A stretch of DNA of 64,000 bases from Pontibacter flavimaris (GTDB lineage: Bacteria > Bacteroidota > Bacteroidia > Cytophagales > Hymenobacteraceae): the NCBI RefSeq assembly GCF_001907195.1, contig NZ_LVWA01000005.1, positions 434,001 to 498,000 of the forward strand, in the 5' to 3' direction. Positions 4,283 to 61,047 of the stretch are shown here, piece by piece (position 1 is the stretch's first letter; each line of letters starts with the position of its first letter). A program made the translations under genes and the position numbers. The notes under the pieces are model-generated. The model saw only the letters and a list, made by a program, of their open reading frames with translations, had not been told where the DNA came from and did not search any database.

Positions 4283-4379
4283 TGTCATTCTGAAAGAAAC
4301 TTGGTAGATATAAGAGGGCCCCTACCCCCGGAGGTTAAGCTGATGCGGCTTGCCCACAAGATCCTTTCAGGATGACAAA
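4283..4379. repeat. Inverted pair of TGTCATCCTG-type repeat, MITE-like
   Basis: A degenerate forward copy (TGTCATTCTGAAAGAAACTT, from 4283) faces a good reverse copy (cttgcccacaagatcctttc then aggatgaca, 4351-4379). The outer ends both read TGTCA, so the 97-bp unit looks like a small element with terminal inverted repeats and no gene. The same sequence occurs at 13772-13802, 14130-14158, 60786-60810, 60959-60985 and 61019-61047. It lies between the sulfatase and GH95 genes. Confidence 0.7.
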
Positions 4380-12208: not shown

Positions 12209-13660
12209 ATGGCAAAGCTTTTTGTATTCGGAATTGGTGGCACCGGCTCCCGCGTGATCCGTTCGCTGGTCATGCTGATGGCGGCAGGTGTCAAAATTCA
12301 GAACTGTGATAAAATAGTACCGATCATCATCGATCCCGACACGCAGAACGGCGACATGAACCGTACCGTGGAATTGCTGAAAACCTACAAGCACATTCAC
12401 GACGCCCTGGGCCGCCGCGACGAAGGATTCTTCCATACCGACATCAGCACCCTGTCAAGTATAGCCGGCGATGGCACTTCCAAGATCCGCGACAGTTTCG
12501 TGTATGACTTTGGGGGGATCAACAAGCCGTTCAAAGATCATGTGGGCTATAACCAGCTCGATGTGGAAAGCCAGGCGCTGATCGACCTGCTGTTTACGCC
12601 GGAGAACCTGAACAACAGCCTGGACGTGGGTTTCCGCGGCAGCCCGAACGTGGGCAGCGTGGTGCTCAACGAGATCATCGATTCGCCTGAAATGCGCTTT
12701 TTTGCTTCCAACTTCCAGGCAGGCGACCGGATCTTTTTTGTGAGCTCAATCTTTGGTGGAACAGGCGCGGCCGGCTTCCCGCTGCTGCTCAAGAATTTCA
12801 AGGATTCGCGTACCTCGCTTCCGAACGCAGCTAGTTTGAACGCTGCCCTGACTGGAGCCATGGTGGTATTGCCATACTTCTCCCTGGAGCAACCGGCCGC
12901 CGGGGTAGAAGCGGACTTCATTGACTCCAACACCTTCACCACGAAGGCAAAAGACGCGCTTTCCTACTACCAGAACCACCTGAATGGCGTGAATGCGGTC
13001 TACTACATGGGCGACACGCCGGACAAGCCGATGGAAAACAACCCGGGCCGCGCCAGCCAGAAAAACGACGCGCATTTGGTGGAGTTACTGAGTGCATTGG
13101 CGATTGTGGACTTCATGGATTATTCGGACGACGAACTTTCCGGGAATGAGACTTTCCACGAATATGGTCTGCGCGAAGACGTAAGCAATGTGCACTTCTC
13201 TCATCTGGATAGTGAAACCCGCGACCGCATTGCCAAGCAGCTGATCCGCTTCCATTACTTCGAGCGCTATTACTCTACGCACTTGCCAGGCGATTCGCAG
13301 GCGGCCTATGCCAAAGGCGTGGACCTAACGAGCGCGCTTCGCAACGAGCCGGTTTTCCGGGAACTGAACAAATTCCTGACGAACCCGGAGTTTGGGTACC
13401 AGGCCTGGCTGCGAGAGTTAAGCCGAAAAGAAAGAACGTTTGCTGCGCTGAATTTGAACGAAATGGACTTCAACCGCATGGTATCGGACAAGCAGATCGA
13501 AACAGGGTTCCTGAACAAAGGCATCCACCAGGGCTCCTTCGTAAAAGAGCTAAACCGTGCTTCCGAATCCATCTCCGACCGCGACGCTTTCAAGGCCACC
13601 ATTAAGGCTTTTGAAACGGCTACAAATACGCTGGTGGAGGAGAAGCTGAAGTATAGTTAG
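12209..13660 (+). CDS. Tubulin/FtsZ-like GTPase-fold protein
   Basis: A 483-residue cytoplasmic protein with the two glycine motifs of the tubulin/FtsZ superfamily. The N-terminal loop FGIGGTGSRVIRSL is at residues 5-18, and the tubulin signature-type loop SSIFGGTGAAG is at about residues 179-189. IVPIIIDPDTQNGDMN after the first motif fits the second strand of the nucleotide fold. The C-terminal half has no obvious named domain. It resembles the divergent Tubulin_2-like proteins of bacteria more than FtsZ itself. It follows the small membrane gene by 2 bp. It may bind GTP and assemble, but catalytic residues of the T7 loop could not be assigned by eye. A vWA lipoprotein upstream and an actin-like protein downstream make it part of an unusual set. 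Confidence 0.78.
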   Translation: MAKLFVFGIGGTGSRVIRSLVMLMAAGVKIQNCDKIVPIIIDPDTQNGDMNRTVELLKTYKHIHDALGRRDEGFFHTDISTLSSIAGDGTSKIRDSFVYDFGGINKPFKDHVGYNQLDVESQALIDLLFTPENLNNSLDVGFRGSPNVGSVVLNEIIDSPEMRFFASNFQAGDRIFFVSSIFGGTGAAGFPLLLKNFKDSRTSLPNAASLNAALTGAMVVLPYFSLEQPAAGVEADFIDSNTFTTKAKDALSYYQNHLNGVNAVYYMGDTPDKPMENNPGRASQKNDAHLVELLSALAIVDFMDYSDDELSGNETFHEYGLREDVSNVHFSHLDSETRDRIAKQLIRFHYFERYYSTHLPGDSQAAYAKGVDLTSALRNEPVFRELNKFLTNPEFGYQAWLRELSRKERTFAALNLNEMDFNRMVSDKQIETGFLNKGIHQGSFVKELNRASESISDRDAFKATIKAFETATNTLVEEKLKYS

Positions 13661-13697
13661 GGACCTCTCCGGCCCTCTCCTAAAAAAGGAAGAGGAG

Positions 13698-13744
13698 CTT
13701 CTCTTCGCTCTTCTGGATTTGCAACCCGTGAGAGCAAAGAGAAG
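13698..13744. repeat. Imperfect inverted repeat after the tubulin-like gene
   Basis: CTTCTCTTCGCTCT at 13698-13711 pairs with AGAGCAAAGAGAAG at 13731-13744 (13 of 14 bp, 19-nt loop). It is preceded by a C/T-rich stretch (13664-13690) similar to other short repetitive sequences of this genome. It may act as a terminator or mRNA end signal, but it has no clear T run. It lies just outside the repeat-flanked GIY-YIG unit. Confidence 0.55.
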
Positions 13745-13771
13745 CTAAAGTATAACAAGTTTTTTTCTCTT

Positions 13772-14158
13772 TGTCATCCTGTAAGGATCTTGTGGGCAAG
13801 AAGCGAAAGCTGCAGCTATGAAAAGCCACAACTATTTCGTTTACATCATTACAAACCCAGGTAAAACAGTGCTCTATACTGGTGTAACGAACGATTTGCA
13901 GGCCAGAGTAGAACAGCACAAAGCAAACCGGGGAAAGCCGGAAACATTTGCCGGACGCTACTATTGCTTTAAGTTTCTATACTTTGAACGTTATACTTAT
14001 GTACAACATGCTATAGAGCGTGAGAAAGAGATTAAGTTAATGGGTAGAGAAGATAAACTTCAACTGATAAAGAAAGAGAATCCTGCACTGATGTTTATGG
14101 ATGTGTGGGAATAGTAAGGCTTACTGGTTCTTGCCCACAAGATCCTTTCAGGATGACA
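13772..14158. mobile_element. 387-bp unit with ~30-bp terminal inverted repeats carrying a GIY-YIG gene
   Basis: The left end (TGTCATCCTGTAAGGATCTT and on to GTGGGCAAGAA, 13772-13802) and the right end (the same sequence reversed, 14128-14158) match over about 30 bp with one mismatch. The outer tips read TGTCA. The enclosed gene is the GIY-YIG nuclease. The unit sits between the tubulin-like and actin-like genes and splits an otherwise tight gene set. No target-site duplication is visible at the outer edges (ctctt on the left, tcaga on the right). Related repeat pairs without a gene are at 4283-4379 and 60959-61047. Mobility is an inference. Confidence 0.6.
13818..14114 (+). CDS. GIY-YIG nuclease domain protein
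   Basis: A 98-residue single-domain GIY-YIG protein of the small UvrC/URI-like group. The signature is present as YFVYIIT (GIY position) and VLYTGVTND (YIG position), followed by the conserved Arg in LQARVEQH. The metal-binding Glu lies in EREKEIKLMGR. Such stand-alone proteins cleave DNA or are of unknown role. Here it is enclosed by terminal inverted repeats of a family seen elsewhere in the window without a gene, reminiscent of the association between REP sequences and RAYT transposases. A role in moving the repeats is a hypothesis. It uses a more AT-rich codon set than the two large genes around it, consistent with insertion. Confidence 0.9.
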   Translation: MKSHNYFVYIITNPGKTVLYTGVTNDLQARVEQHKANRGKPETFAGRYYCFKFLYFERYTYVQHAIEREKEIKLMGREDKLQLIKKENPALMFMDVWE

Positions 14159-14268
14159 TCAGAGTGGGCAGATTAATTTTAAAAGTGCGGCCAGAGTCCG
14201 CGAAATAGCTCACACTCGCGGGACGCGAACGAGGGTTTATAATCATACTTAAAGTAAAAGAAACAAAC

Positions 14269-17200
14269 ATGCCGAAAGTACTTCGTCTACATAAAACCGG
14301 ATCTAACGTGGAAGGCTGGGCTAAAACCAGCCAGATCACGAGCACCGAGATAAAAGATATCACCGATGGCGCCGGTGGCAGAGCCCTGAAAATAAACGCT
14401 TCTATCCCGACGCCGTTTGCCCGCATGCACCTGTTCGAAACTGCTTTCGATTTTGTGAAGCGTGGCGTGGCAGGCTCCAACAACAACACCATTTATCACA
14501 GGTTCGTGACCCATTTCTGGGATCTGTGGGAGCTACTCTACAACCATCAGAGCTACGCGCAGGCTGGCAACAAGATCATCATCCGTCGCTGGAACAAGCA
14601 CCAGCAGCTGGGGACCATGCAGGCGAACCCGAACACGAATCTGCTGGGCCGCACGCTGGAGTTGTTCATGAACGACAGCCGCTTCCAGGGGATCGAGGAT
14701 ATTTTCCTGATCTTCTTCGAGTCGACCAACAGCCGCGGCGACCGCCACATGCAGCTCATCGGCGGCACTTCACCGCTGACCTTCCTGTTTGTAGCGCCGA
14801 ATGTGCAGCCGCTAAGTATAAACCGCGCGCAGAACATTGGCACCTACTTCGACCATAACTATGTGTCGCTGGAGGCCCGGGAGCCGGATTTCAGGGAGTA
14901 TGTGCACAAGCTGTTTGTGTCGAACCCGGCGATGATCCAGGCTTTCCCGGCCGTATACAATGCCTTGGACGAGAACCTGCTGCGAAGTATAAACATGGCA
15001 GGTGCGGTTGGGCAGGGAGCGATTGCCTCGCAGTACCTGCAGCTGGTGGATTTCCAGCAGAACCCGGTACACGTGGGCCACATCAACTTCCTGGTGAAGA
15101 AAGACCAGACCGCCGTGACCAGCAGCGATCTGTTCATCCGCCCGACGCATACCGGCTTTGCTGGCGAAAGGCCCATTGTTTTAAAGCCTGAGCTGCGGCT
15201 GGCTCCGGATGTGAAGTATGTCAACAACCTGGCCTGGCCGGTGAATACCGTAGTGGGCTATGCGGATGAAAAGCCATTGGAGAACCGTTCGCTGCCGGGC
15301 GTGGGGTTCAACTATCCCTACTTAACGATCAACGACCTGTTGCAGGAAACGCTGGTGCAGGTACCGTACGAGGTAAACTCGGATCGTTTCTACAGCGGCA
15401 CCGTGGTATACCAACCGGGCGTAACGGAGAAATCTTTTAACTACCTCTTGCCGATCACGCCTTTATACTTTGATTTCTTCTCGCCGGAGGATCTGGCCAA
15501 TCACCTGACCTTCCACATCGACGTGAACCACGTGCGCGTAACCCTGCGCGTGCCAACCGAAAAAGGAAATGTGGTGTACGAGCGCAGCTATTACGACAAT
15601 CCGCTCAACTCCAAAGACGCGCACGGCAACGTGATCCCCGAGAAAGGCCATATCCTCAAATCCAGGATTGGTTTGGGCGTGTTCCCGTTCTACAAGTTCA
15701 CCGACGCGGTGCAGTACAACGACTTCTACAAAGTGATGCTGGTGGATGAGGACATCGATCCGCTGCTGGTGAACAAAAACCATTCGCTCAGTTTCTTTGC
15801 GGGTGGCAAGCCCCTAGAGGCAGGCGGCGGTATCATTTCTGCCACCGCGCACCGCAGAACTAAAAAGAGCAACAGCAGCGCGGGCAGCACCTATTACGAG
15901 ATCCGCGGCACGCACTTCGATTTTGCGGAGTTCAGGCACGAGGGAGTGGATTTTACAGGCAAGGCGCTAATCGTACCGAAGTTCGAAGAAAAACAGCAGG
16001 GGATTCATAACTTCACTTTTGCCATCGACTTCGGTACCTCGAATACACACATTGCCTATACTTCGGGCACTAACCAGCCGCCGCGCGAGTTCTCCATCAC
16101 GGCTAACGACCAGCAATTGGTGATGCTAAACAAGCCTTCGGAAGATCCCGCTTTAACGGATTACCAGCGCTTCCACAAGCGTGGTTTCGGCAGGTTGTTT
16201 GCCGTAGAGACCTTGCTCAAGCGCGAGTTTATACCTTTGATCATCGGCTCCGGAGGCTCACTGTATAACTTCCCAACCCGTACGGCAACTTGCGAGTCCA
16301 TCGATTTTGAGAACCAGATCACCAACCTTTTTGGCAACATCAACATCGGTTTCTCCATCAACACGGAAGGCACGCACCAGGAACAGTACAAGCAGACCTA
16401 CCACACCGACCTGAAGTGGAGCGAGACGCTGACCAATGCCGGCAAGCGCCGCATCGAAGCCTTCTTCACGGAGATCATGCTGCTGATCAAGAATAAAGTG
16501 GTGCTGAATAACGGCAACGTGGCCAGCACCAAGATCGTGTGGTTTGCGCCGCTGAGCTTTGATGAGTATTCGCGCAACATGTTCCAGAATGTGTGGGATA
16601 CGGTATACAATAACGTGTTCAAGAACGGACGAAATACGGTCTGCATCACGGAGTCTGTAGCGCCATTCTACTTCCTGTCCCGAACCGGTGCCGTGGTGCC
16701 CAGCCAGGATGAGAACCTGATCAACGTGGACATTGGCGGCGGTACGACCGACGTGCTGTTGTTTACCAATCGCAAGCCTTCGCACAGCTCCTCGTTCCGC
16801 TTTGCCGGTAACGATTTGTGGGGCGATGGCTTTGCCACCGTGAAGACGAGCAAAGACAATGGCCTGTTGCAGTATGGCGTAGACCACGTGCTGCGCATTC
16901 CGCTAACGGAAGAAGGACGCGAATACCGCAAGTTCCTGGAAACGGCGCTGGATAACCCGGATTTTAATTCCGCCGACATCAGCTCGCTCTTGTTCAGCTA
17001 CGACAAAGAACTGAACTACAGCTCACAGCTCCTGCAGGCGCGGCAGCTGCGGTTGATGTTTTACCTGCACTTTGGCGCGCTGATGTACCACCTGGCGCAG
17101 CTGGTGCAGCAACTGGACGTGAAAATGCCACGCTACATTTCGTTCAGCGGCCGGGGTAGTTTATACATCAAGCTGCTGAGCGCCGGCAACAACCTCTCGA

Positions 17201-17733
17201 ATGTGGAGCGTTATGCCAAAGCGATCTTCCAGAAGGTAACAGGGCAGGAGCCGCCAGCAAACTTCAAGCTGGTGCTGGTCGATAATCCAAAGCAGGTAAC
17301 GGCCAACGGCGGCGCGATGGCGCTGGAAGGAACCGACCTGAACGACCTGACCAACATCCCGATCATGAAGCCGACCGGTTCGGCCAACATCGAAGACGCT
17401 TTGACGCCGGTAACCAAAACGCAGATCACGGGCGAGTTGCGCCAGGAAGTGATGGATAACGTGATGAACTGCTTGCAACTGCTGCTGGACGATCCGGACG
17501 TGTCGCCGCTCATGCGCTCGATGGGCGTGGAGGTGGACCCGATGCGGGTACTGGAGTTTATGCGCGTGAACCTGCAGGACAGCTATACCATGATTCTGGA
17601 GGACACGGTGCGTGGCCTCACTGACCGCGAGCAGCTGCACGAGACCATGTTCTTCATGCCGCTGAAACAATCGCTATACTTGCTGTCGAAAGAACTGTAT
17701 AGGCAGCAGGCGCAGGTAAGTGCTATTTCCTAA
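14269..17733 (+). CDS. Large protein with C-terminal actin/Hsp70-like ATPase domain
   Basis: 1154 residues. The C-terminal half is an actin/Hsp70/sugar kinase-fold ATPase: phosphate-1 motif AIDFGTSNTH (585-594), phosphate-2 motif NVDIGGGTTD (819-828), a connect-type region ITESVAPFYFLS, and adenosine-type motif ISFSGRGSLY. The N-terminal about 580 residues (for example IPTPFARMHLFETAFDFV, and a beta-rich part ending near residue 575) match no family I can name with confidence. No signal peptide or membrane segment is seen, so it is cytoplasmic. It lies downstream of the tubulin-like gene, separated by the GIY-YIG unit, and upstream of the stator genes. It may be a regulatory ATPase or filament-forming component; the partner is unknown. 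Confidence 0.82.
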   Translation: MPKVLRLHKTGSNVEGWAKTSQITSTEIKDITDGAGGRALKINASIPTPFARMHLFETAFDFVKRGVAGSNNNTIYHRFVTHFWDLWELLYNHQSYAQAGNKIIIRRWNKHQQLGTMQANPNTNLLGRTLELFMNDSRFQGIEDIFLIFFESTNSRGDRHMQLIGGTSPLTFLFVAPNVQPLSINRAQNIGTYFDHNYVSLEAREPDFREYVHKLFVSNPAMIQAFPAVYNALDENLLRSINMAGAVGQGAIASQYLQLVDFQQNPVHVGHINFLVKKDQTAVTSSDLFIRPTHTGFAGERPIVLKPELRLAPDVKYVNNLAWPVNTVVGYADEKPLENRSLPGVGFNYPYLTINDLLQETLVQVPYEVNSDRFYSGTVVYQPGVTEKSFNYLLPITPLYFDFFSPEDLANHLTFHIDVNHVRVTLRVPTEKGNVVYERSYYDNPLNSKDAHGNVIPEKGHILKSRIGLGVFPFYKFTDAVQYNDFYKVMLVDEDIDPLLVNKNHSLSFFAGGKPLEAGGGIISATAHRRTKKSNSSAGSTYYEIRGTHFDFAEFRHEGVDFTGKALIVPKFEEKQQGIHNFTFAIDFGTSNTHIAYTSGTNQPPREFSITANDQQLVMLNKPSEDPALTDYQRFHKRGFGRLFAVETLLKREFIPLIIGSGGSLYNFPTRTATCESIDFENQITNLFGNINIGFSINTEGTHQEQYKQTYHTDLKWSETLTNAGKRRIEAFFTEIMLLIKNKVVLNNGNVASTKIVWFAPLSFDEYSRNMFQNVWDTVYNNVFKNGRNTVCITESVAPFYFLSRTGAVVPSQDENLINVDIGGGTTDVLLFTNRKPSHSSSFRFAGNDLWGDGFATVKTSKDNGLLQYGVDHVLRIPLTEEGREYRKFLETALDNPDFNSADISSLLFSYDKELNYSSQLLQARQLRLMFYLHFGALMYHLAQLVQQLDVKMPRYISFSGRGSLYIKLLSAGNNLSNVERYAKAIFQKVTGQEPPANFKLVLVDNPKQVTANGGAMALEGTDLNDLTNIPIMKPTGSANIEDALTPVTKTQITGELRQEVMDNVMNCLQLLLDDPDVSPLMRSMGVEVDPMRVLEFMRVNLQDSYTMILEDTVRGLTDREQLHETMFFMPLKQSLYLLSKELYRQQAQVSAIS

Positions 17734-59505: not shown

Positions 59506-59848
59506 GCTCTGCCGCAAGTTTAGCGAAGTGTAACTTGTGGCTTAGTATGGCAGCAGTTTTCAACTGCTTTGCTTTGAAAAAGCAAGGTTACAAAGGCTCC
59601 GGCTATACTTTATCCTCTGGCAATAGTCTGCAAAGTATAAATTTGTTAAAGTATACTTTTCTGCTGTGCAGAAAGCTGGTTGCAAATTGGCCTCATGTAT
59701 AGCCACAGGTTAAGCTCCGCTAAACTTGCGGCATGAAGTGTCTCACCAAAGTATAAAGTACAGCCTCAGCCATGCCTTCTCCACCAAAACACTAGCCGCA
59801 TTGGCGCTAAAGTTTTAAAAGCCGTATTTTTACAAAAAACGTAAAGAT
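59506..59848. other. 343-bp intergenic region before menB
   Basis: No gene seen. It has five motif copies, including the 12-bp palindrome AAAGTATACTTT at 59648-59659. The menB promoter probably lies in the last 60 bp, where the sequence becomes T-rich (GTATTTTTACAAAAAACG). Confidence 0.4.
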
Positions 59849-60715: not shown

Positions 60716-61047
60716 AAAGCAGGCGAGCCTTTTGGGTTCGCCTGTCTTAGTTTTCGGACATCTGTACAAGCTAAATAGTCCATTTTGTCATCCTGAAAAG
60801 ATCTTTTGCCATTGTTGGTGTTTTCACCAACAATTTGTACTGCAGCAGGCTGTTTTCTTGCAGGTGATAACACCTGCAAGGGCTAGAAAAAACAGGTGAA
60901 CCGAGAGGCTTGCCTGTTTTTGTTTTACGGATATCTTCACAAGTAAAGCAGTATATTTTGTCATCCTGAAAGGACCTTGTGGGCGAACTAAATATATGAT
61001 GAGCATGCGCCACTACTGCTTGCTACCAAGATTCTTCCAGAATGACA
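60716..61047. repeat. Diverged tandem repeat with two perfect hairpins and TGTCATCCTG repeats
   Basis: Two diverged units (about 60720-60810 and 60889-60985) align end to end: a CAGG(C/T)GA hairpin, CGGA(C/T)ATCTT and ACAAG, then TTTTGTCATCCTGAAA. Between them are two adjacent perfect 10-bp hairpins with 4-nt loops: ATTGTTGGTG-TTTT-CACCAACAAT (60811-60834), and CTTGCAGGTG-ATAA with its complement (60857-60880). The second unit's TGTCATCCTG copy (60959) faces an inverted copy (61019-61047). No gene is supported in this 390-bp gap. Confidence 0.7.
60720..60750 (+). terminator. menB: menB terminator
   Basis: CAGGCGAGCC (60720-60729) and GGTTCGCCTG (60735-60744) form a 10-bp stem (one G-T pair) with loop TTTTG, followed by TCTTAGTTTTC. 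Sequence around it is repeated 170 bp downstream in diverged form. Confidence 0.75.

Follow-up and report, generated by a model that had tools for sequence, protein, structure and literature searches.

GIY-YIG enzymes cleave DNA by hydrolysis and, unlike HuH enzymes, form no covalent intermediate with it. In 2025, Chenal et al. reportedly described Ssn proteins of Neisseria as GIY-YIG single-strand nucleases and dealt with both their cutting and their part in transformation, and Neisseria Ssn is said to modulate natural transformation through its repeat. We take the Ssn nucleases to be the closest known relatives of the type of nuclease considered here. Tagged REPs were sorted in 2013 into two superfamilies, a GTAG class that comes with RAYT and a CGTC class that comes without an enzyme (PMC3733652). 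Members of the CGTC superfamily often have TGTC as their tag, begin their stem of 8-9 bp with AT, occur predominantly as inverted dimers and in tens of copies, and are known in Bacteroidetes and, as dRS3, in Neisseria (PMC3733652). Di Nocera, De Gregorio and Rocco found them to be unassociated with transposase genes and seemingly without a dedicated enzyme, and no tyrosine transposase gene in that work was flanked by CGTC repeats (PMC3733652).

Here we analyse a locus within a stretch of 64,000 nucleotides (the window) from a Pontibacter genome of 4.62 Mb, in which a small GIY-YIG gene lies between inverted repeats. We consider it probable that this feature is a 'GIY-YIG REPtron', that is, a nuclease gene bounded by its cognate TGTC/CGTC-tagged REPs, with gene-less REPs derived from the same ends, single or paired, scattered in the genome.

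The repeat and the nuclease in the window

A preliminary description of the locus had noted inverted ends of about 30 bp with one mismatch and a shared tip TGTCA, which enclose a GIY-YIG gene alone and recur without a gene elsewhere in the window, and each of these observations held. The 5' arm (13772-13802, forward strand) and the inverted 3' arm (14128-14158, reverse strand, identified by complementarity to the 5' arm and by its fold) are each 31 nt long and 97% complementary, with one mismatch and 325 nt in between. The sole open reading frame between them (13818-14114, forward strand) is a nuclease gene for a single-domain protein of 98 residues (Pfam GIY-YIG, PF01541, E=2.9e-14), which starts 15 bp from the 5' arm, ends 13 bp from the 3' arm, and is the only GIY-YIG gene of its type in the genome. 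The same ends without a gene are found in two REPIN-like, two-armed units. The unit at 4283-4377 (reverse strand) has TGTC hairpins at both outer ends, and one of its arms (4349-4377) is identical to the 3' arm at 29/29 positions. The other unit (60959-61047, forward strand) pairs the copies at 60957-60984 (93% identity) and 61019-61047 as its two arms. In addition, a degenerate single REP at 60784-60811 (forward strand) retains 79% identity to the 5' arm. The 24-bp core, at up to three mismatches, has 40 copies in the genome and its reversed pattern has none, which together with the short distances between arms and gene places the ends beyond chance. No Rfam RNA was matched at the locus.

The element is preceded by a gene for a tubulin/FtsZ-like protein (12209-13660, forward strand; PF00091, 1.2e-4, below the curated cut-off) and followed by one for an actin/FtsA-like protein (14269-17733, forward strand; PF14450, 4.1e-4, also below the curated cut-off). 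Elsewhere in the window, at 59510-59733, stands the inverted pair TGCCGCAAGTTTAGCG..., a kind of repeat also found at the borders of HuH RAYT genes in Pontibacter, indicating that the window also holds a second, RAYT-type REP family.

Both folding and co-variation show the repeat to consist of an unpaired TGTC tag followed by a small hairpin. In the 5' arm the tag is followed by the hairpin ATCCT-GTA-AGGAT and the tail CTTGTGGGCAAG, and this arm folds as DNA at -4.3 kcal/mol (z -2.6). Compensatory changes in the stem are evident among 91 sites of the genus that were gathered with a pattern that put no constraint on the inner stem positions. Pair 6-14 is C-G in 74 sites, T-A in 16 and mismatched in one (p=5e-18), while pair 7-13 is C-G in 84, T-A in five and mismatched in two (p=8e-7). 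Since the inner pairs change together, the hairpin itself is conserved, beyond mere sequence. The stem starts as AT...AT in both window arms, and the outer A-T pair is kept in 74 of the 91 sites. Of the 28 solo sites studied, roughly half belong to two-armed units, mostly of 76 bp and with both tags outermost; a partner arm with at most seven mismatches accompanies 39% of solo sites versus 0.5% in shuffles, and for one of the units the folding energy is -17 kcal/mol (z -5.5). In its anatomy, the Pontibacter repeat is a REP/REPIN. The unpaired tag at the hairpin end, the AT-paired stem start and the frequent inverted pairs are those of CGTC/TGTC-tagged REPs, but the stem of about 5 bp and the loop of 3 fall short of the 8-9 bp and 4-5 nt of that superfamily, whereas the repeat in Shinella has a 9-bp stem and a 5-nt loop. 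We class the Pontibacter repeat as a TGTC variant of this superfamily that lies outside its four published families.

The protein is a member of the GIY-YIG superfamily (53.5 bits against a Pfam cut-off of 22.6) in which the two Tyr motifs and the Arg, Glu and Asn are all present; among 19 homologues Y9, Y20, G22, R30 and E69 are invariant and N88 is nearly so. Its AlphaFold model (pLDDT 82.8) has the UPF0213 GIY-YIG structure 1zg2 as the best PDB match and also matches Slx1, with weak E-values. The gene is under purifying selection, with a median dN/dS of 0.056 in homologues of the genus and values of 0.10-0.17 in the four pairs that could be compared at the site of the window. These low ratios indicate that the nuclease has been kept functional, although some copies in Pontibacter are interrupted by stops.

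Pairing of nuclease and repeats in Bacteroidota and Proteobacteria

Whether GIY-YIG homologues are generally flanked by such repeats, as the preliminary description had asked, can be answered in the affirmative for Pontibacter and for its phylum. Homologues were matched at E<=0.001 in 45 of 50 Pontibacter genomes, some of these matches being merely distant, and inverted TGTCAT-type arms surround the gene at all 23 close-homologue loci that were fetched. A sister clade with 50-60% identity has a different flanking repeat. The flanks of the genus loci fall into 13 clusters, which means no fewer than a dozen sites for the unit; two of these sites are common to many species. The repeat does not need the gene in order to persist, as genomes without a close homologue can be rich in it (58 copies in G021 and 24 in G034).

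At the window's site, 25 genomes have the downstream gene; nine of them have the unit, two have a 3' relic alone, and the others have other repeats or short spacers. The element is thus not a fresh insertion at this site, because a unit that is common to about nine species and has left relics in two is an old resident. No clean empty site between the tubulin-like and actin-like genes was found in the relatives checked, since their spacer is filled with other repeats, and no exact junction of the element was found in Pontibacter. Across the genus, several different repeat families are found in the spacer (13661-14268 in the window, with its counterparts L119-L143), which would appear to be a hot spot for repeats within a gene set that is conserved in other respects. 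A second small GIY-YIG gene, at G000:C2:181542 (L001:1378-1800), immediately follows a tRNA-Ala gene. The tRNA-Ala 3' end and the palindrome GGCAACTGCGAAAGCGGTTGCC appear to be repeated directly on the far side of the GIY-YIG gene, as if it had integrated at tRNA-Ala with the tRNA end restored.

Homologues are present in 130 of 296 Bacteroidota genomes, and flanks were compared for 129 loci from 75 of the genomes. At 86 of these loci a tagged AT-hairpin lies no more than 300 bp from the gene on one side or both (3.4 when shuffled, 1 when reversed), and 47 of them have one on each side (0 in either control); under this strict criterion, about a third of the homologues have none. TGTC and CGTC are the commonest tetranucleotides before 7-bp stems in these flanks, at 12.5 and 11.5 times the background. 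An inverted-repeat score of at least 18 was reached by 24% of the loci versus 0.4% with swapped flanks, and long direct repeats stand on either side of the gene in half of the loci, many being complete two-armed units. In the phylum flanks GTCAT pointed inward as often as outward (54 vs 54), owing to the complete palindromic units that many of the flanks contain, and this test was replaced by the hairpin, direct-repeat and swap tests. A homologue is present in 43 of 57 genomes that contain one Bacteroidota pattern at least six times, versus 87 of 239 others (p=1e-7, uncorrected for phylogeny). Neither a gene fixed without repeats nor repeats unlinked to any GIY-YIG gene, the two patterns which the preliminary description had regarded as speaking against such a pairing, was seen as a rule.

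The repeat sequence tracks the relatedness of the nucleases and not the host genome. Same-genome pairs with 35-45% protein identity have a repeat in common in only 2% of cases (n=47), in contrast to cross-genome pairs of the same family, which do so in 67% of cases at 65-80% identity and in 90% above 80%. Such lineage-specific matching fits a cognate pair and does not fit a shared pool of target repeats, although joint inheritance of whole units may be part of the effect. Two or three neighbouring GIY-YIG copies were seen at G141:C3:126436-127254, G115:C86:45027-46128 and G102:C31:267294-274109, which might reflect local amplification of units through recombination at the repeats.

The pairing of nuclease and REP extends to three classes of Proteobacteria. 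A tblastn search of a plasmid collection, with some chromosomes included, found homologues in alpha-, beta- and gamma-Proteobacteria, and CGTC REPs flank the gene on both sides in eight of the 14 loci read and on one side in a ninth, that of Photobacterium; flanking CGTC REPs were found at none of the Spirosoma, Planktothrix, Novosphingobium, Sphingobium and R. tumorigenes loci. The pattern occurs just twice in a 4.94-Mb Aeromonas record and just twice in one of 1.76 Mb from Neorhizobium, and all of these matches flank the gene, as do three of four in Sinorhizobium meliloti. N. gonorrhoeae has 129 pattern matches, which are dRS3-like, and its GIY-YIG homologue (37% identical to the window protein over 90 residues) is embedded among them. 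Photobacterium sp. GJ3 (NZ_CP073579.1) has 123 copies of a dRS3-like CGTC hairpin, which recur every ~200 bp in long arrays at 421473-425346 and 1123204-1126637.

Whole REP-gene-REP units are present or absent at conserved sites. In Shinella PSBB067 such a unit lies directly behind the sufB stop codon and before sufC; the 77-bp sufB-sufC spacer of Sinorhizobium, which is ~90% identical to Shinella on both sides, has no REPs. Similarly, Azospirillum lipoferum has a REPIN-gene-REPIN between sufB and sufC that is absent in the five relatives read. This indicates that whole units arrive or leave, although the suf junctions are inexact because the spacers have diverged. When E. coli genomes were searched for an empty site of the Aeromonas element, nothing matched beyond a fragment of an upstream gene. 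By eye, no target-site duplication outside the inverted repeats, such as a DDE insertion sequence would leave, was seen at the window site or at the Shinella suf site. Neither a circular form nor any movement of a unit was observed. The units of Azospirillum lipoferum 4B (L285) and Shinella sp. PSBB067 (L277) have different repeat types in the same spacer, which is possibly a preferred site of GIY-YIG units in these two distant alpha-Proteobacteria.

Alternative readings and a possible mechanism

RAYT-like Y1 transposases are encoded in 43 of the 50 Pontibacter genomes, with seven in the genome of the window, and the TGTC repeats might accordingly be ordinary REPs moved by a HuH RAYT, with the GIY-YIG gene a mere passenger. 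However, TGTCAT repeats bound none of the 30 RAYT loci examined, many of which have inverted repeats of other families, and two genomes with 64 (G048) and 21 (G012) TGTC repeats have no Y1_Tnp match at all. The gene between the REPs is moreover a GIY-YIG gene, not that of the HuH tyrosine transposase found in a RAYT/REPtron. Together, the RAYT flanks and the repeat-bearing genomes without Y1 led us to reject movement of the TGTC repeats by RAYT, and Di Nocera et al. (2013) likewise had no CGTC-flanked tyrosine transposase gene (PMC3733652), so that a passenger role is highly improbable. Instead, two separate REP/nuclease systems coexist in one genus. The parallel to REPs and RAYTs with a different nuclease family, as drawn in the preliminary description, has thus proved to be general, the repeat being tied to GIY-YIG and not to HuH RAYT genes.

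The two other readings that we weighed keep the nuclease and its repeats together and differ in who moves what. A domesticated nuclease might cut its cognate REP in single-stranded DNA and thereby limit or shape DNA uptake and recombination, with the repeats tolerated or useful but not moved by it. Strong purifying selection and long residence at one site would agree with this, as would the position of the gonococcal homologue (37% identity) in dRS3 repeats and the modulation of natural transformation that Neisseria Ssn reportedly exerts via its repeat. Yet it leaves unexplained why whole REP-gene-REP units stand in the suf operon of two genera and why the sole two copies in some records flank the gene, and we regard it as unlikely. 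We give a similarly low probability to a homing endonuclease gene that invades pre-existing REPINs and merely colonises them, the repeats being independently mobile targets. The gene does lie between the arms of an otherwise gene-less two-armed unit in the window and in most Pontibacter loci, and in many Bacteroidota a complete unit stands in direct orientation on either side of the gene. However, repeats differ from one nuclease lineage to the next even inside one genome, a reservoir of target repeats is lacking in the Aeromonas and Neorhizobium records, and relatives with an empty suf site have no REP there.

We therefore return to the cognate nuclease-REP unit, for which the best reading is a GIY-YIG analogue of the RAYT/REPIN pair. 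By this analogy, and by that with the Ssn nucleases, the nuclease most likely recognises the unpaired (T/C)GTC tag and the hairpin in single-stranded DNA, such as the lagging strand or DNA that is taken up, and would then cut near the tag. Repair or replication across the break could copy a REP, a REPIN or the whole unit to new places; given that GIY-YIG enzymes keep no covalent link, joining would be left to the host. The window element would then be a homing or repeat-spreading element, as the preliminary description had surmised. A far broader proposal is that the CGTC/TGTC-tagged REP superfamily could have its long-missing dedicated enzymes, throughout the bacteria, in GIY-YIG nucleases. 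The two would make up a second class of REP/nuclease replicator, with an origin independent of that of HuH RAYTs, which would copy itself through hydrolytic nicking followed by repair by the host. For this we see the chances as evenly balanced.

Comparison with known systems

GIY-YIG homing endonucleases of the I-TevI type share the catalytic domain with the window nuclease, but the window element has no intron and no separate DNA-binding domain and is bounded by its own repeats. Ssn of Neisseria resembles the window nuclease in being a GIY-YIG protein of small size that has its own repeat in the genome, and the similarity examined here is that in sequence to the gonococcal homologue. To the reported work on Ssn, the present analysis may add the mobile REP-gene-REP unit, the matching by lineage and the empty sites, although some of the pairing of gene and repeat may already have been reported. 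Within the papers covered, a literature search that combined GIY-YIG with the vocabulary of REPs returned nothing except an unrelated Moraxella gene list.

With the CGTC-tagged REP superfamily the repeats share the unpaired (C/T)GTC tag, the AT-paired stem start, the predominance of inverted dimers and the tens of copies, but the Pontibacter stem is ~5 bp instead of 8-9, and a GIY-YIG gene is regularly bounded here where no dedicated transposase was known (PMC3733652). The pairing thus offers a candidate enzyme for the CGTC class of REPs. The spread of these widespread repeats is now directly testable with a protein of 98 residues and a 24-nt hairpin, the candidate recognition sequence of the window nuclease being TGTCATCCTGAAAGGATCTTGTGG, and the many natural pairs of nuclease and recognition sequence are candidates for site-specific single-strand cutters. 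Like RAYTs with their REPINs, finally, the system has tagged hairpin REPs on both sides of one nuclease gene, non-autonomous units with two arms at other places, repeats that match by lineage and a stable residence. It differs in that a hydrolytic GIY-YIG nuclease takes the place of the HuH tyrosine transposase and the tag (T/C)GTC that of GTAG, which suggests that two unrelated nuclease folds have converged on the same selfish strategy.
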